The notes beneath the pieces were generated by a model, which was given only the letters and a program-made list of their open reading frames with translations, searched no databases and had not been told where the DNA came from. Shown in pieces: positions 17,053 through 31,316 of a stretch of 64,000 nt of DNA; the first letter of the stretch is position 1; every line of letters starts with the position of its first letter. This stretch comes from Candidatus Nitrosothermus koennekei (GTDB taxonomy: Archaea; Thermoproteota; Nitrososphaeria; Nitrososphaerales; Nitrosocaldaceae), in contig JACAFH010000001.1 of the NCBI GenBank assembly GCA_013538715.1, positions 1-64,000 of the forward strand, given 5' to 3'. The translations under genes were made by a program, and so were the position numbers.

Positions 17053-18408
17053 TTAGAAGCGACGCTTATTAATTATATTTCTCTTGTTTAAAATGTAATC
17101 AGTGATAAGCATCTTGTCAAGATTTGCTGGGTTTATATAATATGATCTACCTTTTACATGCTTCTCCATATCATTAATATATTTAAGTAACGATTCTTCC
17201 TCACTTATCATTATAGTATCTATTAATATACCATTTTTATAGCATTTCTTTGCTTCATTTATTGTCTTTTCTCCAATGTAGCTATCTACCTTCTTATATC
17301 TATAGCATAGATATACTAAATCTCCACTACTTGTATCTATATGTATTTTCATCTTCTTCTCTACATTATCTAAAGTATTCTTATCTGGTTTATAGAAATG
17401 AGTATAAGATCTAGCGCCAAGTATCTTTTCTTTCTCCATATCATTATCTACAAAACATGCACTAGGATGGCCATCTGTGATGAGTACTAACCTCTTCTCT
17501 GTAGATGGATCCTTCTCCAATATCTTATTGGCTAATCTAAATGCCGATTGATAATTTGTATAATGTAGAAAATCATTTCCTGGCTCAAAAGTCTTTAGAT
17601 ATGGTATATCAGAAGGTTTGATTTTTGTTGCTAATGCACCGAATCCAATTATATAGATTGAATCAGTAGGAAAGAATTTCTCATTTAATATGTAAAGAGA
17701 CCATAATGCTCTCTTTGCTACCTCAATTCTACTCATATCACCTAGAGAGGTTGAGTAACGCATAGTCGAACTAAGATCTATACAATATATTATTGTGGTT
17801 CTAATATCCTTCACGCATTCAAATACTTCGAAATCCTCAACATTGATATCCAAGGGTATGCTTATCTCATTATTGTATCTTGCCAATCTTTGTATGGTGT
17901 TTAGTAATGATTTTGGAACATTTAACAATCTAATATCTTCTCCTATCTCATATTGTTTGCTAGTGTCAAGCGTCGTAGTACCATATCCATATTTTGTAGT
18001 CTCATGCATACCAAAATCTCCTTCTTTTAAAGTGCTCATTATATCTCTTAGCAAGAGTCTGCCTATAACATTAAAACCTTTACTCGTTAGAATCTTCTCA
18101 TCCTCTTTTATGTAGCCTACTTTTTTGATATATCTTATTAAAGGCATGTCATCTCCTTCTGAATTCTCCTTATCTATTTCTATAACTTCATTTCTAAACA
18201 TACTCTCTAATTTTTGTTCCAATTCTCTATTAGTAACATTTCGTTCTCTCATAATCTCTCTTCCAATAGTCATCAGCATCTTCTCTATAATCTCCTTACT
18301 AATCTCCTTCTCTTCTCCTTCTCTCTCATCAGCATCTTCATGCTTTAGATATGCATATCTTTTATAATAGATATTAGATTGTTTCATAACCCCCTTCTCT
18401 CTTATCAA
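17053..18408 (-). CDS. von Willebrand factor A domain protein (MoxR partner)
   Basis: A 451-residue protein with a helical N-terminal half and a vWA domain from about residue 200. The metal-ion site motif is visible as DLSST at 211-215 (DxSxS/T), followed by VLITDGHPSA later in the domain. An internal ATG 21 bp downstream (18387) may be the start, since the first seven residues overlap the end of the upstream ATPase. AAA+ MoxR/ChlI-like ATPases and vWA proteins work together as chaperones or metal-insertion machines; the shared operon with the ATPase (35 bp overlap) supports that. The client is unknown. Confidence 0.85.
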   Translation of the reverse strand: MIREKGVMKQSNIYYKRYAYLKHEDADEREGEEKEISKEIIEKMLMTIGREIMRERNVTNRELEQKLESMFRNEVIEIDKENSEGDDMPLIRYIKKVGYIKEDEKILTSKGFNVIGRLLLRDIMSTLKEGDFGMHETTKYGYGTTTLDTSKQYEIGEDIRLLNVPKSLLNTIQRLARYNNEISIPLDINVEDFEVFECVKDIRTTIIYCIDLSSTMRYSTSLGDMSRIEVAKRALWSLYILNEKFFPTDSIYIIGFGALATKIKPSDIPYLKTFEPGNDFLHYTNYQSAFRLANKILEKDPSTEKRLVLITDGHPSACFVDNDMEKEKILGARSYTHFYKPDKNTLDNVEKKMKIHIDTSSGDLVYLCYRYKKVDSYIGEKTINEAKKCYKNGILIDTIMISEEESLLKYINDMEKHVKGRSYYINPANLDKMLITDYILNKRNIINKRRF

Positions 18409-20005
18409 TTACTGGTGGTCGCAAACTTCTCAAACATTCTAGCACAATTTCAGTAACTGAAGCATGAAACTCTCCATTCATATTCTTTAAAATTAATAGA
18501 TCTTTATCTATACCATATTTAACTAATAATTTTACAAATTCTTCATGTTCCCTCTTGACTCTCTCCTTTATTTTTAGTATTGCAGCATTCAATGATGGGA
18601 ACCTTTTGAGTTGCTCAGTATAAGACTCTCCACCTTCCCCGAGCATAATTTGACTAGTATAAAATATCTTATTTCTCATAAATTCATCTCTTATATCTGA
18701 TATATTTGTAATATCATTAAGATACTCTCTTGAAGTCTCTGCTATACAATCTGCCATTACCTGCTTCAATAAGTTATTTCTATTCTCTATAGTATCATCG
18801 ATATCAGATAATTCAAATTTTATAGATTGATTTATTGCATGAAGGTCAGAAGGTCGTGGTATCACTTGAATATCATTATAGATACCTCTTGTTCTATACG
18901 CTTCACTTAATACCAATTCTAAAGCATAGATGCCTATTCTTACACTAACTCCTTTCTCTTTATTAACTTCTGGATGCTTTCTAAGAGATTGTGTTATTCT
19001 TGCTAATATCTTTAATATGAACAAAGGTAAGAATGCATCTTTACTAGGAGAATGTGCCTCTTGCACCATTATTATCATTTCATCCTCCAAAGTGTTTGGA
19101 TAATGAGTACGAATGTGACTCTTTAATCTATCATATAACGGTTCAATTATCTTTCCAACATGAGTATAATCTATTGGATTTGCTGTTGCTATTATCTTGC
19201 ATTCTGGTTTGAATATCACTGGGTATGACCCAGTTGTGAATCGTCCTTCTTGTAATACACTTAATAACACTACTTGTTTTCTAGGATCTAATACCGGTAA
19301 CTCGTCTATACAGAGTATACCATGTCTAGCTTGTAACAATTGTCCAGGAGAGTATGATGCTATGTCATATATCTCCACACCCTTCTTTGCAACCTTTATA
19401 GCATCTATTTGTCCTACTAGATCTTTAATAGATATATCTGGCGTTGCTAATATGTATCTATATCTTTCTAAACCACTCCTCCATTCTATACGTGTATCTA
19501 ACCCATTATTTCTTATCTCTTCTTCAGAGTCTTTTCCTATATAAAACTCTGGAGTAGTTCTAATAACCTCTTGATCAAGTAAGAGTGAGATCAGATGCTC
19601 TGCTGGTAGTGTAGTTGGAACATCATTCATAGTAGAACCTTTTATCACTGGCATAGGGGATAATAGATTTTTAGCTATAGTCTCTGCAAGTTTAGTCTTT
19701 GCTTGTCCTATCTCTCCTATGTAAAGTATATCATGTCTAGCTAAGATAGCTCTGTCAGTAGAGGGTATGACATCGTCATCATAACCTATAATACCATGAT
19801 AGGGATTTTCATTATTCTTTCTCTTATTAATCAAATTTTTACTTAATTGAGTATATACACTAGCATGTTTATATGATATATTTAATAGATCTCCCAAAGT
19901 TTTTATATCCTTATAATCTTCAGGTAAACCAGCTTGTATCTCATCGTATTTTGGTTGAGATCTATAACTATTATTCACTAACTCTACTATTGCGTCTTTA
20001 TCCAT
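18374..20005 (-). CDS. MoxR/ChlI-like AAA+ ATPase
   Basis: A 543-residue AAA+ ATPase related to magnesium chelatase subunit I and MoxR. Visible motifs are the P-loop GEIGQAKT (near residue 99, with Ala where the last loop Gly is usual), Walker B GILCIDELPVLD, the SVLQEGRFTTGSYP insertion hairpin typical of the ChlI/MoxR clade, sensor ATANPIDY and a downstream arginine region. The lid and a long helical C-terminus follow. No other chelatase or bacteriochlorophyll genes are nearby, so the role is probably protein remodelling with the vWA partner encoded just downstream. Confidence 0.85.
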   Translation of the reverse strand: MDKDAIVELVNNSYRSQPKYDEIQAGLPEDYKDIKTLGDLLNISYKHASVYTQLSKNLINKRKNNENPYHGIIGYDDDVIPSTDRAILARHDILYIGEIGQAKTKLAETIAKNLLSPMPVIKGSTMNDVPTTLPAEHLISLLLDQEVIRTTPEFYIGKDSEEEIRNNGLDTRIEWRSGLERYRYILATPDISIKDLVGQIDAIKVAKKGVEIYDIASYSPGQLLQARHGILCIDELPVLDPRKQVVLLSVLQEGRFTTGSYPVIFKPECKIIATANPIDYTHVGKIIEPLYDRLKSHIRTHYPNTLEDEMIIMVQEAHSPSKDAFLPLFILKILARITQSLRKHPEVNKEKGVSVRIGIYALELVLSEAYRTRGIYNDIQVIPRPSDLHAINQSIKFELSDIDDTIENRNNLLKQVMADCIAETSREYLNDITNISDIRDEFMRNKIFYTSQIMLGEGGESYTEQLKRFPSLNAAILKIKERVKREHEEFVKLLVKYGIDKDLLILKNMNGEFHASVTEIVLECLRSLRPPVIDKREGGYETI

Positions 20006-24468: not shown

Positions 24469-26469
24469 ATGATCGCTTATATAGCATATGCACTATTTCT
24501 TATAGTCTCTTGGATTATATTTGTATATACATTAAATAATTACTATCTTGTATATCTCGCATTAAAGAATAATAAAAAAATAAGAGTATCAAATACTTCT
24601 TTTCCAATAGTTACTGTGCAACTTCCTTTATTTAATGAACGATATGTAGCAGAACGTCTAATTAAAGCAGTTTGTAATATGGATTATCCTAAAGATAAAT
24701 TGCATATTCAAGTACTTGATGATTCTACAGATGATACCATACATATATGTGAAGAGTTAGTAGGTTACTATAGATCAAGAGGATTTGATATAGAGCATAT
24801 TAGAAGAGAAGATAGAACAGGTTATAAGGCTGGAGCGCTTAGAGAGGGACTAAAAAGCGCAAAAGGAGATTTTATAGCTATATTTGATGCGGATTTTGTT
24901 CCTCCTCCATGGTTCTTGAAGAAGGCTCTAGAGGCATTTGATGATAATGTAGGGTTTGTGCAATGTAGATGGGGCCATCTAAATGAAGATTATTCTGCCT
25001 TAACAGAGGCACAAGCACTAAGTCTAGATTTACATTTTCTTATTGAACAGAAAGCAAAGAGTCTAACACATATATTCATGAACTTTAATGGCACTGCTGG
25101 AGTATGGAGAAAAGAGTGTATATATGACGCTGGTGGTTGGCAGATTAATACTCTAGTTGAAGATCTTGATCTTAGTTATAGAGCACAGATAAAAGGATGG
25201 AAATCTGTATTTGTTGAAGATGCTGTAATACCAGCAGAGCTACCAGTCCAAATAAACTCTGTAAAGAGGCAGCAATACAGATGGGCAAAAGGATCTATTC
25301 AATGTGCTGTTAAACTCTTACAAGATGTAATCATGCATAAGCACTTACCAGCAGATACCAAGATTCAAGCGTTTGTACAATTAACAAGACACATTGTATA
25401 TCCGTTATTGCTTATACAGTTTTTGCTTTTACCATTACTCTTAGCAATAGATTATAATATTTATCCAGTTAACATCTATCCTTTAAGTGCTTTGGTTATG
25501 TTTATATTATTCAGTTTTACCTTCCCTCTAATAGTTATAAAGAAGGTATTTAGTAATTCATGGAAGAAGAAAATAAGAGCTTATATATATCTAATACTAT
25601 TTGGTAGTGGTATAGCTGTTAATAATACCATAGCTGTGTTGGACGCATTATATGGCGGTAAACCAGAATTTCTTAGGACTCCAAAATTTGGGATAACAAA
25701 AAAAGGTGAGGAGTGGCGTAATAACATATATGCTCTACCATTTACAAAGACTACACTACTAGAAATATTCTTTGCAGCATATGGAATTCTAGGTATATTT
25801 ATATCAATCTTTAGTAATAATCAGATATATGCACCAATCATAGCGATACAGACTGCAGGATTTATCTATGTATCATATCTAAGTATAGCTCACTCAATCT
25901 TTAAGAATAGACATAATAATGAGATGTTATCTAACAATGTTAGGAGAGTAAATATGAAGTCAAAATTAGCATTAGTAGCAATTCTATCAATACTATTGTT
26001 TGGAGTAGTAATGGCATGGGTAGGTTATAGCACTTCAGTCTATCCATTAGATAAAGCAAGAGGTTATCTTACAGTGGCTATGCAAACATCTAACGCAGAA
26101 GAGATACTTGACTATCTTGCTAGTGTTAAAACATTACTACCGGCTAGTGGTAATCCGGTATGGATGTTCCCAACTCCGAAGAGTGACTTTGGTATAATGC
26201 AGAAGAATCTTGATAATATGATGAACAAAGCAAGATCATTATCTCAATTACAAAAGGACAGTGTAGAATTTAATACAGGTTTATCAGATCTTAGAGGGCA
26301 GTTAACTTTATTAGAAGATTCAATTGAGGAAGCTCAGCCATACGTATATGCAAGTTTTCAGAATATAGTATTTAGTATCATCTGGATAGCAGTTATAATG
26401 ATGATCTTTAGCATCTTAAAGAGAAGTAGTAATAAGATCAAAGAATATGAGAAGTATAATCAAACATGA
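24469..26469 (+). CDS. Membrane family 2 glycosyltransferase with extra C-terminal domain
   Basis: A processive-type glycosyltransferase of 666 residues. After a first membrane helix (5-25) the cytosolic catalytic domain shows DDSTDDT, the metal-binding FDADF (D140, D142), the acceptor motif EDLDLSYRA and QxxRW at Q268-R271-W272, as in cellulose and glucomannan synthases. Membrane helices follow to about residue 480. Residue 496 starts a new stretch (an internal Met followed by a hydrophobic helix) with a 100-residue extracytoplasmic domain and a final helix near 640-660. An AGGAG sequence precedes this internal Met, so it may be a recent fusion or a site of internal initiation. The gene ends 10 bp inside the PIN gene. 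Confidence 0.85.
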   Translation: MIAYIAYALFLIVSWIIFVYTLNNYYLVYLALKNNKKIRVSNTSFPIVTVQLPLFNERYVAERLIKAVCNMDYPKDKLHIQVLDDSTDDTIHICEELVGYYRSRGFDIEHIRREDRTGYKAGALREGLKSAKGDFIAIFDADFVPPPWFLKKALEAFDDNVGFVQCRWGHLNEDYSALTEAQALSLDLHFLIEQKAKSLTHIFMNFNGTAGVWRKECIYDAGGWQINTLVEDLDLSYRAQIKGWKSVFVEDAVIPAELPVQINSVKRQQYRWAKGSIQCAVKLLQDVIMHKHLPADTKIQAFVQLTRHIVYPLLLIQFLLLPLLLAIDYNIYPVNIYPLSALVMFILFSFTFPLIVIKKVFSNSWKKKIRAYIYLILFGSGIAVNNTIAVLDALYGGKPEFLRTPKFGITKKGEEWRNNIYALPFTKTTLLEIFFAAYGILGIFISIFSNNQIYAPIIAIQTAGFIYVSYLSIAHSIFKNRHNNEMLSNNVRRVNMKSKLALVAILSILLFGVVMAWVGYSTSVYPLDKARGYLTVAMQTSNAEEILDYLASVKTLLPASGNPVWMFPTPKSDFGIMQKNLDNMMNKARSLSQLQKDSVEFNTGLSDLRGQLTLLEDSIEEAQPYVYASFQNIVFSIIWIAVIMMIFSILKRSSNKIKEYEKYNQT

Positions 26470-26861
26470 CTCTTTATAGGGGGTTCTATATACTCTGCCT
26501 TTAATCCTTCAACCAATAATCTTTTATCAGCAGTTATTAAGGTAGCACCAGTATGAATAGCTAATGCAATTATATACGAGCCAACCATAGAAAGTTCATA
26601 CATCTTTTTAATCTTTACACTCTTCTTTCCAACTTCATAATCGAATCCTATTATCTTTATCTTAGAGTTTTTTATAGCCTCTAATCTTCTTGCAACCTCT
26701 TGATAATCAAATACATTTAAAAGTTTATTTATTAATTCCATCATCGAACCTTCATAGATGTATCCTTCCTCTCTTCCTTCATTAATCAAATCTATTACCT
26801 CTGCAGCTCTTGTATCTCCAGCAAAGTAAAGCAATAATATGGTATGATCTATAATTATCAT
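26460..26861 (-). CDS. PIN-domain protein (VapC-like)
   Basis: A 133-residue PIN-fold protein, normally a Mg-dependent ribonuclease of toxin-antitoxin modules. The first acidic residue is D5 in IIIDHTILL, an Glu lies around 42 and TADKRLL near 112 carries the last Asp. The third acidic position in the LSMVGSYIIA helix is Gly where Asp is usual, so activity is uncertain. The gene lies 29 bp after an AbrB-type gene on the same strand, the usual antitoxin-toxin order. Confidence 0.7.
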   Translation of the reverse strand: MIIIDHTILLLYFAGDTRAAEVIDLINEGREEGYIYEGSMMELINKLLNVFDYQEVARRLEAIKNSKIKIIGFDYEVGKKSVKIKKMYELSMVGSYIIALAIHTGATLITADKRLLVEGLKAEYIEPPIKSHV

Positions 26862-26890
26862 ATACCTCTAACAATACCTCCTTATGCGAA

Positions 26891-27130
26891 TCATTTCTCA
26901 TTTTTCTCCATTACATCATTAAGTAATCCTTTTATTATAACTTCATTACCTTTATCTATTCCAAACATATTCTTTATAGTTATCATAGGTATCAATTTTA
27001 TACCCTCTTCAGTATCTACAAATTTTAATCTAGAACCAGTTGTTATACCATATTTGCGTCTTATAGGGATTGGTATGGTTATAGTACCTAATCTTGTAAC
27101 TGTATGTATGTACTCTTTCTTTTTCTCCAT
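26891..27130 (-). CDS. AbrB/SpoVT-type DNA-binding protein (VapB-like antitoxin)
   Basis: A 79-residue swapped-hairpin DNA-binding protein: VTRLGTITIPIPIRRKYGITTGSRLKFVDTEEGIKLIPM is the AbrB pattern (split here by reading; key residues R, P-I-R-R, G-I-x-x-G-x-x-L). Such proteins bind operator DNA and neutralise a partner toxin. It is immediately upstream of the PIN gene, with which it forms a probable toxin-antitoxin operon. Confidence 0.75.
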   Translation of the reverse strand: MEKKKEYIHTVTRLGTITIPIPIRRKYGITTGSRLKFVDTEEGIKLIPMITIKNMFGIDKGNEVIIKGLLNDVMEKNEK

Positions 27131-27218: not shown

Positions 27219-27230
27219 ACTATAAATAGT
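27219..27230 (+). promoter_or_regulatory. TATA box of the coiled-coil/ATPase operon
   Basis: actataaatagt lies about 27 bp upstream of the ATG at 27251, the position expected for a leaderless archaeal transcript starting the three-gene operon. Confidence 0.5.
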
Positions 27231-27250: not shown

Positions 27251-29131
27251 ATGATCAATGAGATTATGGAAGACCTATATAAAAGAATAGAAGATTCTGG
27301 AGAATTAGGTATTAGAAGAACTCAATTAATTAAAGAGTTTGGGAAAAATATTAAAACCAATCTCGATGAATTACTATCTCAAGGTTTTATATCTCTAAAG
27401 AAACATCGTAACAGTATAATATATTATGCTAATAAAAATATAGATGAAAGTAGGTTATCTAAACCTATACAAAATGATAACCAATCTCTAGATAAAATTA
27501 ATTACATAGAGAATGAATCAGATGAGAGAATGCATAATCTATCATCTATAGACGAAAAGTCTAAGTCATTATCAAATGAGAATAGCTCAATTACAAACAT
27601 GTTATCATCTTTAACTAATAGAATAGACACTTTAACAAAAGATAATAGCAATAGCATTCAAGATATACATTCAAAACTAAATGATTTGGCAAATAAATTT
27701 GATGAATTAGTAAATTTGATAGAGAGAAAAGCAGATAAAGATGCATTGGTAGATGTAGAGAATAATATAAACAATCTTACTAGTAATTTAAATAAAGAGG
27801 TTAAAGCACATGCAGCAAATATCAATATTATAAATAATAATGTACATAAATTAGAACATAATATTAATACACTTACAGATAGATTAAATGCAAAAGAGTA
27901 TGAACAATCTATAATAAATATTAAAGAAGAGGTTGGGAGATTAAACTCCATATTAAATACACTCGATACTCAGGTTAAGTCATTATCAAATGAGAATAGC
28001 TCAATTACAAACATGTTATCATCTTTAACTAATAGAATAGACACTTTAACAAAAGATAGAATCAATGAGATATACTTAAGATTAGATGAGCTATCAAGGA
28101 GATTTGATATATTACGAGAAGTTCTAGAGAAGAAAGTAGATAGTGGAGTATTAAGTGAAATTGAGAAGAGTATAATAGATAATCTTAAGAAGGAGATTAG
28201 TATTTATGTTAATAATATAAGCGCTTTAAATAATGAGATTCATAAATTAGAGAATGATATCTCTATATTGAGAGAAAATGTTAATACAAAAGTAGACCAA
28301 GAATCACTTGAGAAGATTAATGAAGAGATCAAGAGATTAGATTCTGTTATAAACTCGTTTACTTCTAGTATAGAATCATTATCAAATGAGAATAGCTCAA
28401 TTACAAACATGTTATCATCTTTAACTAATAGAATAGACACTTTAACAAAAGATAATAGCAATAGCATTCAAGATATACATTCAAAACTAAATGATTTGGC
28501 AAATAAATTTGATGAATTAGTAAATTTGATAGAGAGAAAAGCAGATAAAGATGCATTGGTAGATGTAGAGAATAATATAAACAAGAGTATAAAGATGCTA
28601 GGAGGATTAGAAAGCAACCTTACTAACGCCATTAAAGATACAAATGAAATGTTCGAGAGATTACAGAGACAAATAGGAGGTAAAGCAGATGATATAAAAC
28701 TCTTCGAGATGGAGAAAAGACTTGAGAATCTTTTAGTTATGGATTCAAGATACGCATCTATGGAGAGGTTAATTAATGAATTAGATGCAAAGATTAAAGC
28801 TGTTAAAGGAGAGATGGAGGATAGAATAAGAATGGTAACAGCAGAGTTAAGTCTCTTAAAAGATGGAGATAACGACGATAACAAAATATCATTAGAGCAA
28901 TTTAAGATGGAGTTCGATAGAATAGTAGCAGAGCATACAAACTCTATTGGCTGGATAGAACTCATAGATATTAGGAAGAGAATATGCTCAAAATATAATA
29001 TCTCAAAGAATACATTCTATACATTAGTATCACAATTGTTAGATGCATATAACTCATATGAACTATCATCAGGTGGAAAGGAAGGTATCGTGATTAGAGG
29101 ATTGACACATGGATTTGTGAGGATGATATGA
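27251..29131 (+). CDS. Long coiled-coil protein with terminal winged helices and internal repeats
   Basis: I do not recognise a named family. Residues 1-65 look like a winged helix (MEDLYKRIEDSGELGIRR, IKTNLDELLSQGFISLKK). Residues about 70-540 are heptad-like coiled coil rich in Asn, Ser, Leu and Glu, made of repeating units. Residues 545-626 form a second helical/winged unit (IGWIELIDIRKRICSKY, NTFYTLVSQLLDAY). A unit SLSNENSSITNMLSSLTNRI occurs three times, at residues near 106, 244 and 376, and two of the copies are identical at DNA level over 209 bp. The ATG follows a TATA box by 27 bp. The stop overlaps the ATPase start by 4 bp, so both proteins are made together, suggesting a complex like a kleisin/SMC-type or DNA-tethered assembly (inference). 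Confidence 0.75.
   Translation: MINEIMEDLYKRIEDSGELGIRRTQLIKEFGKNIKTNLDELLSQGFISLKKHRNSIIYYANKNIDESRLSKPIQNDNQSLDKINYIENESDERMHNLSSIDEKSKSLSNENSSITNMLSSLTNRIDTLTKDNSNSIQDIHSKLNDLANKFDELVNLIERKADKDALVDVENNINNLTSNLNKEVKAHAANINIINNNVHKLEHNINTLTDRLNAKEYEQSIINIKEEVGRLNSILNTLDTQVKSLSNENSSITNMLSSLTNRIDTLTKDRINEIYLRLDELSRRFDILREVLEKKVDSGVLSEIEKSIIDNLKKEISIYVNNISALNNEIHKLENDISILRENVNTKVDQESLEKINEEIKRLDSVINSFTSSIESLSNENSSITNMLSSLTNRIDTLTKDNSNSIQDIHSKLNDLANKFDELVNLIERKADKDALVDVENNINKSIKMLGGLESNLTNAIKDTNEMFERLQRQIGGKADDIKLFEMEKRLENLLVMDSRYASMERLINELDAKIKAVKGEMEDRIRMVTAELSLLKDGDNDDNKISLEQFKMEFDRIVAEHTNSIGWIELIDIRKRICSKYNISKNTFYTLVSQLLDAYNSYELSSGGKEGIVIRGLTHGFVRMI
27566..27774 (+). repeat. Direct repeat copy A (209 bp)
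   Basis: Identical base for base to 28376-28584. The spacing of 810 bp is a multiple of three, so both copies are read in the same frame of the coiled-coil gene. The first 79 bp also recur at 27980-28058. Confidence 0.95.
27980..28058 (+). repeat. Direct repeat copy B (79 bp, partial)
   Basis: Identical to the first 79 bp of copies A and C, offset from copy A by 414 bp (in frame). Downstream of it the sequence diverges while keeping coiled-coil character. Confidence 0.95.
28376..28584 (+). repeat. Direct repeat copy C (209 bp)
   Basis: Perfect second full copy of the repeat in the coiled-coil gene. Lack of silent differences over 209 bp implies a recent duplication or gene conversion. Confidence 0.95.
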
Positions 29132-30690
29132 CATACCCATATAATTTAGAGATCAACCCGTATCCGAGTAGCCCTACTCCAACATTAAATGACGTATATA
29201 TATTAGGAGGAAGAAGGCATAAGGAAGCAAAAAATATAATTATAGAATGCATTAATGATGTAAAGAATAAAGATAACGATTTCAGACTTATTACTATAAT
29301 TCAAGATATAGGTAGTGGGAAGACCCATCTTGCATTAAATATCAAAAAGACGCAGAAAGATATATCATGTTCTTATCTAGATCTAAGTAGATTATCGCCA
29401 AGAGGAATAGATAGTATATACAACGCTCTAATTTATGGATTTGAAGATAATATAAAGGAGTTAAGATATGCTCTAATTGAGCATATAAAGACAAAAGCAT
29501 TAAATAATGATAAAGCGTCAAAGAAGTTTTTTAGAATGTCATTTTTTAGTAGAAATATACAGAAACTAGCAGGAGAGGTATTAGAAGGAAAGAGAGATGC
29601 AGATCTTAGTTATGTAGACGAGATATTTAGAGAATATAGCATAAATGAGAAGAGAGTGATAAAGGGAATACTACGTAATGAGTTAGAGAAGAGTAGTAAG
29701 ATGGATGAGATATTAGAGAATCTAGCAGCATTAGCAAAACTGAATAGAATTCTTCTTAAAAAAGTAACTTTAATAGAAGTTGATGAATTGGATGCAGATA
29801 CAGATTCACTAGATTTTACCAAAGCAATTATCAATGCACATTTACCATCCACAATTCTATTAATCATAACTACACCCTCGCTTTATAGTAAAATAAGAGA
29901 CGCTTCATCATCATTATTCGATAGAATGGAGAAAGCTAACTATAAGATAGATCTTGCTGGTGCTAGTATGTTCGATGAGGTTGCTGACATAGTGCTTGAG
30001 TATATAAGAGTTAATGTTAAGGATATAACATTTTCACAATACGAGAGTGATATAATGAATAAGGTAAGAGTAATATATGATGAATTTAAGGAGTTTCGAA
30101 ATATACGCTCGATGTTAAACATAATGTATCATACACTAGAGACTGCTAAGAAGAAGAATGTACCAGTCATAACAGATGAAGTCATAGATGATACACTAAA
30201 CCATGTATATCCTGGTTTAAGAGTCAAAGGCAGTATAATGAATGTTCCAATATCTGAATTCATAAGAATAAGAAGGGAATATAATGATGATAAATTAGAA
30301 GAGAGTGTAAAAGAAGCTATAAAAAGTCTATTAATATTTACTTATGAGAAAGGTAAAGCCTCGCCAGAAGAGATGAATCTGAATAAGGAGAGTGATATAG
30401 ATGCTTTATATATAGATGAAGAAGGTAAGAAAGTTGGTATCATAGTAACTATAAATAAGGATCATACAAAGATATTTGAAAGAATAAGTAAATTACAAAA
30501 GAATGTTGATAAATTATTAATATTAACAAACGCAAATATCATGAATCATAATGGTAGCACTGTAGTAAGTTTAGATAAATGTAAGATGGTAGACCTGATA
30601 TACTTTAGCAATAAGTATAAACAAGAGGATATAGAAGGCGCAGATACAGATAGAGCATTAATATTAGCAAGATCTGTATTACTTTGCTAA
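29128..30690 (+). CDS. Divergent AAA-type ATPase, partner of the coiled-coil protein
   Basis: A 520-residue P-loop ATPase. Walker A is DIGSGKTH (G62-K65-T66), Walker B is LIEVDELDA with D219-E220, and a sensor-1-like IITTPS follows. Residues about 255-340 resemble the helical lid of Orc1/Cdc6- or STAND-like ATPases (EFRNIRSMLNIMYHTLE). The last part (about 415-490) alternates strands and helices, with DIDALYIDEEGKKVGIIVTI, recalling a PD-(D/E)xK nuclease-like fold in which the usual E-x-K is missing. The ATG overlaps the coiled-coil gene stop (ATGA) and its stop overlaps the HAD gene start. No named family recognised; role in DNA handling or defence is inference. Confidence 0.7.
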   Translation: MTYPYNLEINPYPSSPTPTLNDVYILGGRRHKEAKNIIIECINDVKNKDNDFRLITIIQDIGSGKTHLALNIKKTQKDISCSYLDLSRLSPRGIDSIYNALIYGFEDNIKELRYALIEHIKTKALNNDKASKKFFRMSFFSRNIQKLAGEVLEGKRDADLSYVDEIFREYSINEKRVIKGILRNELEKSSKMDEILENLAALAKLNRILLKKVTLIEVDELDADTDSLDFTKAIINAHLPSTILLIITTPSLYSKIRDASSSLFDRMEKANYKIDLAGASMFDEVADIVLEYIRVNVKDITFSQYESDIMNKVRVIYDEFKEFRNIRSMLNIMYHTLETAKKKNVPVITDEVIDDTLNHVYPGLRVKGSIMNVPISEFIRIRREYNDDKLEESVKEAIKSLLIFTYEKGKASPEEMNLNKESDIDALYIDEEGKKVGIIVTINKDHTKIFERISKLQKNVDKLLILTNANIMNHNGSTVVSLDKCKMVDLIYFSNKYKQEDIEGADTDRALILARSVLLC

Positions 30691-31316
30691 AGATACTATC
30701 TTTAGATCTAGATGGAACTATCTTCCCTAACAATATAGACGATAAGTTATGGTTTGAGTTAATTCCTAGAGAGATATCAAAAGCTAAAGGAATAAGCATA
30801 GATGCTGCTATTTCATTTGCTAAAACTGAATATAATAGACTAACTCCTTATGATCCAAGATGGTATATACCAGAGTATTGGTTAGAGAGGTTCATGTTAA
30901 ACATAGATCTAAACTCTCTTCTAAATGAGATGGAGTATGATAAATATATTTATCAGGATCTGAATTCTATAAATTACGGTTTAAAAGTTATAGTATCAAC
31001 TACCAATGCTAGATCCGTTTTATATAAGAAGTTAGATGCTATTAAAAAGATAATACCAATTGACGCAAGTTTCTCAGTAGTCTCAGATCTTAATATAGTA
31101 AATAAGAATAGAAGGTTTTATGAGCATATTTGCAACGTATTAAATGTAAAACCTTATGAGATTATGCATATAGGCGATAATATAATATATGATCTCTTGT
31201 ATGCAAGAAGTTGCGGCTTAAGAAGTATCTTAATAGATAGAGGTAAGAGTATGGAAGGTTATGACGTAATTCATACATTTGATAAACTTGCTGAGTATAT
31301 TAGAAATAATTCTTGA
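30684..31316 (+). CDS. HAD-superfamily hydrolase
   Basis: Predicted phosphatase or phosphonatase-like hydrolase of 210 residues. Motif I is LDLDGTIF with the nucleophile Asp, motif II is VSTTNAR, and motif IV is HIGDNIIYD with the metal-binding Asp residues; a helical cap lies between residues 20 and 95. It overlaps the ATPase gene by 7 bp and so belongs to that operon, which is unusual for a housekeeping phosphatase. Substrate unknown. Confidence 0.8.
   Translation: MLKILSLDLDGTIFPNNIDDKLWFELIPREISKAKGISIDAAISFAKTEYNRLTPYDPRWYIPEYWLERFMLNIDLNSLLNEMEYDKYIYQDLNSINYGLKVIVSTTNARSVLYKKLDAIKKIIPIDASFSVVSDLNIVNKNRRFYEHICNVLNVKPYEIMHIGDNIIYDLLYARSCGLRSILIDRGKSMEGYDVIHTFDKLAEYIRNNS

Follow-up and report, generated by a model that had tools for sequence, protein, structure and literature searches.

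A pair of adjacent genes, encoding a protein with winged-helix-type domains at its ends and a coiled coil between them (gene 1) and an Orc1/Cdc6-like AAA+ ATPase (gene 2), forms a conserved unit in distant lineages of Thermoproteota and may constitute a two-protein chromosomal machine for a core DNA transaction, be it replication, segregation or repair, a reading to which we assign a probability of about 0.45. We arrive at it because a protein of DNA-binding type and its Orc1/Cdc6-like ATPase neighbour are conserved together, mostly in single copy, with a pattern that suggests vertical inheritance. Replication control, chromosome segregation and the cell cycle are poorly understood in ammonia-oxidising archaea (AOA) and in Thermoproteales, and the adjacency of the two genes across distant lineages, together with their presence in all good Nitrososphaeraceae genomes, makes the pair a strong candidate component of that machinery that has so far gone unseen. 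The question is directly testable because the pair also occurs in the genetically tractable Sulfolobaceae.

Architecture of the Locus

The pair was studied in a 64-kb stretch of DNA (hereafter the window) from a genome of 1.46 Mb in 34 contigs (G000), and the features discussed below are collected in Table 1. The host is a relative of the AOA (Nitrososphaerales, probably Nitrosocaldaceae-like), judging from contigs of its order named Nitrososphaera and Nitrososphaeraceae, the copies of which nest within family f7. The sequence-only reading had described three overlapping genes on one strand behind a single TATA box, and the open reading frames and the sequence confirm this arrangement, with overlaps of 4 bp (ATGA) between genes 1 and 2 and of 7 bp between genes 2 and 3. 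The TTG start of gene 3 is backed by relatives, whose starts sit one codon off. The TATA-like box lies at the spacing from the gene 1 start that is expected of a leaderless archaeal transcript. The octamer TATAAATA was chosen post hoc, with a chance expectation of about 0.01 copies per 50 bp on one strand, and it occurs 28 times in the window when both strands are counted. As a three-gene operon, however, the earlier description stands in part: the conserved unit consists of two genes, and the third, encoding a HAD-family phosphatase, is lineage-specific, joining the pair only in the family of the window (f1) and its sister family (f2).

Table 1. Coordinates of the genes, domains, motifs and neighbours of the pair (positions in the window).
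Feature	Position	Strand	Basis or remark
TATA-box-like TATAAATA	27221-27228	+	sequence; ~26 nt 5' of gene 1 ATG
Gene 1, 626-aa protein with a coiled coil flanked by winged helices	27251-29131	+	ATG start
N-terminal winged-helix domain, ~aa 1-67	27251-27451	+	alignment A2; AF2 model of relative L018
Coiled coil, ~aa 90-540	27518-28870	+	alignment, heptad period; longer than in relatives
209-nt in-frame repeat, first copy	27566-27774	+	
209-nt repeat, second copy	28376-28584	+	identical to first copy
C-terminal winged-helix-like domain	28883-29128	+	motif YELSSGG-EG---RG--HGFVR; alignments A2 and A9, hhalign
Gene 2, 520-aa AAA+ ATPase, Orc1/Cdc6-like, C-terminus REase-like and degenerate	29128-30690	+	ATG start
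Walker A GSGKTH, aa 62-67	29311-29328	+	G64 and K65 invariant in alignment A10
Walker B Asp-Glu, aa 219-220	29782-29787	+	invariant in A10
Arg266, candidate arginine finger	29923-29925	+	invariant in A10
REase (Mrr/PD-(D/E)xK)-like domain, ~aa 395-500	30310-30627	+	catalytic residues lost
Gene 3, HAD-family phosphatase, 210 aa	30684-31316	+	PF00702; TTG start
GT2 (cellulose-synthase-like)	24469-26469		recurrent upstream neighbour in 11 AOA loci
PIN-domain toxin and MazE/AbrB-type antitoxin	26460-27130	-	directly upstream of the pair

Distribution and Conservation of the Pair

By profile search the pair is found in the Nitrososphaerales, the Thermoproteales and the Sulfolobaceae, as well as in several further families of the phylum; a single-sequence search of genome contigs had returned only two relatives. 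Searches with the ATPase profile covered 400 genomes of the order, 300 of the class and 300 of the phylum, and those for gene 1 covered 70 Nitrososphaeraceae-like genomes, 379 genomes of the phylum and 214 of the order of genome G584, which we take to be a Sulfurisphaera (G480 is presumably a Caldivirga, and the order and family names of the other relatives are likewise assumed). Gene 1 is present in 64 of the 70 Nitrososphaeraceae-like genomes, including all 37 of good quality, and in 12 of 12 genera, and the ATPase is present in 41 of 45 Thermoproteales genomes. Sulfolobaceae carry one to three copies per positive genome, with almost none in the other families of that order (214 genomes). 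The pair is absent from most Nitrosopumilus-like genomes and from most families of the order, and thus it is not universally essential. Searches of viral, phage and plasmid collections, including IMG/VR contigs, gave no relative.

Absence of co-occurrence in other genomes had been set beforehand as a result that would refute the proposal, and the outcome favours it: of the 114 genomes in which loci were read, 107 have gene 1 directly before gene 2, most commonly with a 4-bp overlap. The remaining seven, belonging to family f13, in part to f9, and in one fragmentary case to f45, have the ATPase alone. For each of the two proteins, hhalign comparison of profiles confirms that the AOA form is homologous to the Thermoproteales form (ATPase, probability 99, E = 4e-18; gene 1 C-terminus, probability 96, E = 2.8e-9). 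The ATPase tree of 51 rows, built by a quick method and with some long branches, splits f1, f9 and f13 each from all other rows by a single branch and unites f7 with the two contigs named Nitrososphaera and Nitrososphaeraceae in one clade, and this grouping by family is consistent with vertical descent plus losses. Among f1 genomes, dN/dS is 0.10-0.14 for the ATPase, 0.19-0.31 for gene 1 and 0.20-0.29 for the HAD gene, that is, purifying selection is strong.

Two departures from the pairing were seen. The ATPases of f13 (L030-L032, L098) have no coiled-coil partner detectable anywhere, and those of genus g37 (L100, L101) have no adjacent one, which is odd for an obligate complex.

The Winged-Helix Coiled-Coil Protein

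Winged helices at both ends of the gene 1 product had been claimed from the sequence, and the claim agrees with an AF2 model of a 227-aa relative (L018, mean pLDDT 64) and with the conservation of both end domains, the C-terminal one being less certain. In the model an N-terminal winged helix of H-H-H-b-b order (pLDDT ~60) comes first, residues 75-133 form a helix, and three helices make up the C-terminal domain, whose fold is likely also a winged helix. The latter domain, ending in the motif given in Table 1, is the best-conserved part of the protein and probably contacts the ATPase or binds DNA. Foldseek with the L018 model returned nothing below E = 0.001, the weak matches being winged helices of MarR, TFIIE, LOTUS and Cdt1, and profile searches of the PDB with gene 1 gave no credible match. 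Matches to ATG17, JetC, LmuB, DndD and other coiled-coil families were rejected as driven by the coil, because the short-coil relative L018 does not show them.

Between the conserved ends, the middle segment of the 14 aligned relatives ranges from almost nil to the roughly 450 aa of the window protein. At the lower end stands a protein of 176 aa with almost no middle segment (L027), and the Thermoproteales proteins, of about 160-180 aa, are nearly coil-free. The long coiled coil reported earlier is therefore upheld for the window protein, where a hydrophobic period of 3.5 residues is confined to, or strongest in, aa 90-470, but it is a local exaggeration of the family. Within the coil lie two exact in-frame 209-nt copies, 810 nt apart, and a third, diverged copy (61%) at 27980-28188. 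We take the duplication to mean that the coiled coil lengthened recently, an effect of assembly being less likely.

The AAA+ ATPase and Its Nuclease-Like C-Terminus

Pfam, NCBIfam and PDB profiles place gene 2 in the Orc1/Cdc6-DnaA-STAND part of AAA+, with BrxD also near, although the window ATPase falls below every curated cut-off of Pfam and NCBIfam; the general AAA_22 cut-off is passed by some of its Sulfolobaceae relatives. Against the PDB the best informative matches were Cdc6 (2qby, 2.6e-4) and DnaA (3.6e-4), the others being generic P-loop matches, and the RecA fusion entries that topped this search were discarded as repeat artefacts. An AF2 model built from a 3-sequence alignment reached a pLDDT of only 40, too low for use. 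The identification as a P-loop ATPase was sound: the GxGKT motif, the Asp-Glu pair and the Arg residue (G64, K65, D219, E220, R266) do not vary among 17 members so distant that identity falls to 15%, and from this alignment Arg266 is a probable arginine finger.

A C-terminal fold resembling a nuclease, with its catalytic residues lost, had also been proposed. Members of f13 match Mrr_cat in this region (E = 0.0075), and the site reads D...D-I/V-K in f50, in f29 (L091) and in accessory Sulfolobaceae copies. In a test for the PD-(D/E)xK signature, the D...(D/E)-x-K motif was found in L184, L195, L181, L188, L090 and L091, the first four of which are accessory Sulfolobaceae pairs with the motif intact, the other copies in that family having lost it; the window and the aligned AOA copies mostly keep the first Asp, and the D/E-x-K is gone. 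Because f13 members match Mrr_cat and distant members keep the motif that AOA have lost, the proposal is supported: the window ATPase has probably inherited a genuine nuclease fold, now dead. In Thermoproteales the ATPases, at about 250-280 aa, carry no nuclease-like domain. The nuclease-intact accessory copies, set against the nuclease-dead ones, may indicate how a nuclease-ATPase pair could turn to housekeeping.

Comparison with Named Systems

The statement that no named system has this gene set survived searches of Pfam, NCBIfam, PADLOC, the PDB and the literature (largely open-access papers), none of which yielded a system matching the pair. Of the archaeal protein pairs, SegAB(C) of Sulfolobales is alike in its manner of working, an adjacent DNA-binding protein and ATPase. 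In that system a ParA-type ATPase, SegA, is joined by SegB, which is a ribbon-helix-helix protein. The fold of SegC is ThDP-binding-like (PMC11381335). No component resembles gene 1 or gene 2; the Pfam and NCBIfam matches of the window ATPase include AAA_22 and no ParA family. Neither is the pair described in the papers on CMG and its replication context (PMC3307487, PMC2643942), SegC, BREX, WhiP or UBP.

The closest named families are those of Orc1/Cdc6 (TIGR02928), AAA+ proteins of the same broad clade with which gene 2 shares Walker A and Walker B motifs and a candidate arginine finger. Gene 2 differs in falling far below the TIGR02928 cut-off of 181.3 bits (best E = 1.4e-4, matched in 3 of 16 ATPase members), in that the ATPases of the pair do not appear among the TIGR02928 matches of the genomes, and in having no fused C-terminal winged helix, the position being taken by the Mrr_cat-like domain or by nothing; winged helices are instead found in a separate protein, gene 1. 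BREX BrxC/BrxD and MADS mad8 are likewise Orc1/Cdc6-clade AAA+ ATPases with DNA-binding partners, BrxD being a stand-alone ATPase of ORC-Cdc6 type (PMC12839542), but the loci of the pair have no methyltransferase, PglZ, helicase or kinase in common. In PADLOC the f29 ATPase matched mad8 (2.5e-7) and BrxD (0.0026) and L184 matched mad8 (9e-4), whereas the window ATPase and HAD protein had no match and gene 1 matched through its coil only; for no defence system were all core genes matched.

MukBEF and Wadjet (JetABCD) also combine a coiled coil and winged helices for the handling of chromosomes or plasmids, and gene 1 matches JetC at 5e-10, in the coil only (short-coil L018 has no JetC match). 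Gene 2, however, is an AAA+ protein of the AAA_22/Orc type with no SMC-type head, and here the coil belongs to the other protein. The inventory of McrBC and the CoCoNuTs is similar, a small gene set with an AAA+ ATPase, a PD-(D/E)xK domain, a coiled coil and a winged helix, but here the nuclease domain is fused to the ATPase and, in the window, dead, and Pfam and PADLOC gave no match to the McrB or McrC families.

Genomic Context

The loci of Thermoproteales genus g112 place GINS and then MCM immediately 3' of the pair in 5 of 5 genomes, in the order adenylate kinase, gene 1, gene 2, GINS, MCM (the kinase was seen in the four loci that reach it). This linkage in one genus is suggestive of replication and cannot carry the case alone: it is absent in the other Thermoproteales and in AOA loci, and in AOA the MCM gene is far off or on another contig. 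No proximity of the pair to an origin was seen in complete genomes. A separate true Orc1/Cdc6-type match exists in all 12 genomes tested, 11 of them above cut-off. Around the pair in the window lie the housekeeping genes for GT2, HMG-CoA synthase, EF-2 and P-II, together with the PIN/AbrB toxin-antitoxin.

Possible Function and Rival Explanations

The sequence-only reading had left open a chromosome-organising, partition or defence module. Chromosome maintenance is now favoured over defence, on the grounds of conservation and vertical inheritance. In favour of a chromosomal role we count the adjacency, the breadth of occurrence, the deep homology, the ATPase tree, the low dN/dS, Orc1/Cdc6 as the nearest named family, the g112 linkage to GINS and MCM, the housekeeping neighbours and the lack of copies in the plasmid, phage and viral collections searched; against it count the GINS-MCM linkage in one genus only, the patchiness, the ATPase-only genomes and the distance from origins. 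In such a machine, gene 1 would dimerise through its coil and its winged helices would bind DNA, bridging or marking sites, while the conserved C-terminal domain would dock the ATPase; the ATPase might then assemble on DNA as an ATP-controlled switch of the Orc1/Cdc6 kind, with the dead nuclease domain as a DNA-binding platform. Tentatively, and with well under even odds, the pair could be a chromosome machine of Thermoproteota that has escaped recognition: a winged-helix bridge, evolvable in length, would load or anchor the Orc1/Cdc6-like ATPase, the whole would act with MCM-GINS or in segregation, and its ancestor would have been nuclease-bearing and either mobile or devoted to defence.

That the pair is itself a defence system or a derivative of one seems rather unlikely to us. 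It would then consist of a STAND/BrxD/MADS-type ATPase-sensor that carries a PD-(D/E)xK effector domain and is directed by a winged-helix adaptor, and in AOA, where the nuclease is dead, it would have been domesticated in part. We keep this reading because some Sulfolobaceae copies are motif-intact (the accessory L181, L184, L188 and L195, against the loss in other Sulfolobaceae and AOA copies) and because distant ATPases (f29, L184) resemble mad8 or BrxD; the Pfam matches to nSTAND3, NACHT and NB-ARC and the patchy distribution in Nitrosopumilaceae point the same way. Yet no good Nitrososphaeraceae genome lacks gene 1, the branches of the ATPase tree match the families, purifying selection is strong, the window ATPase has no PADLOC match, Thermoproteales have no nuclease domain at all, and the flanks in the window hold no defence genes except the PIN/AbrB toxin-antitoxin. 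An origin in defence with later domestication would fit both bodies of evidence.

We consider it unlikely that the pair is a repair or recombination complex of the HerA-NurA kind, in which DNA ends would be the substrate of the ATPase and would be bound, or would once have been cut, by the nuclease-fold domain. The fusion of an AAA+ module to a restriction-endonuclease fold, whose D...D-x-K motif is intact in f29, f50 and the accessory Sulfolobaceae copies, would suit such a complex, as would a pair that is core and vertically inherited, but the nuclease is lost in AOA and Thermoproteales, and no Mre11-Rad50-HerA-NurA or other repair genes were recognised in the loci read. Quite improbable is a transcription regulator, in which the winged-helix protein would control its own neighbourhood and the ATPase would be a ligand-sensing switch: the winged helices, the best (non-significant) fold matches to MarR-type regulators and TFIIE, and a Penicillinase_R match of 3.1e-5 in one Sulfolobaceae partner speak for it, whereas the AAA+ motifs point to an oligomeric DNA machine and the ATPase is the only neighbour conserved across the range, so that no regulon is obvious.

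Accessory and Neighbouring Genes

The gene 3 product matches PF00702 (4.7e-7) and has all HAD motifs (DxDGT, the motif-II Thr, the Lys and GD(D/N)...D), with D8, D10, T106, K116, G164, D165 and D170 invariant in its alignment (A3). As a core component the HAD gene was ruled out by its confinement to f1 and f2, and it is an accessory of that one lineage; the HAD gene of f13, two or three genes downstream of the ATPase, belongs to a different neighbourhood. In Nitrososphaeraceae and Nitrosopumilaceae a conserved protein of 140-150 aa with no Pfam match (F02; L026:3512-3955 and relatives) is often encoded just 3' of the pair; it was rejected as a third component because genomes that lack the pair have it too. 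A relative of the PIN gene occupies the equivalent place in G007 (L020). Elsewhere in the window, at 17053-20005 on the minus strand, adjacent genes for a MoxR/AAA_5-type ATPase and a VWA-domain protein form an ordinary MoxR-VWA pair.
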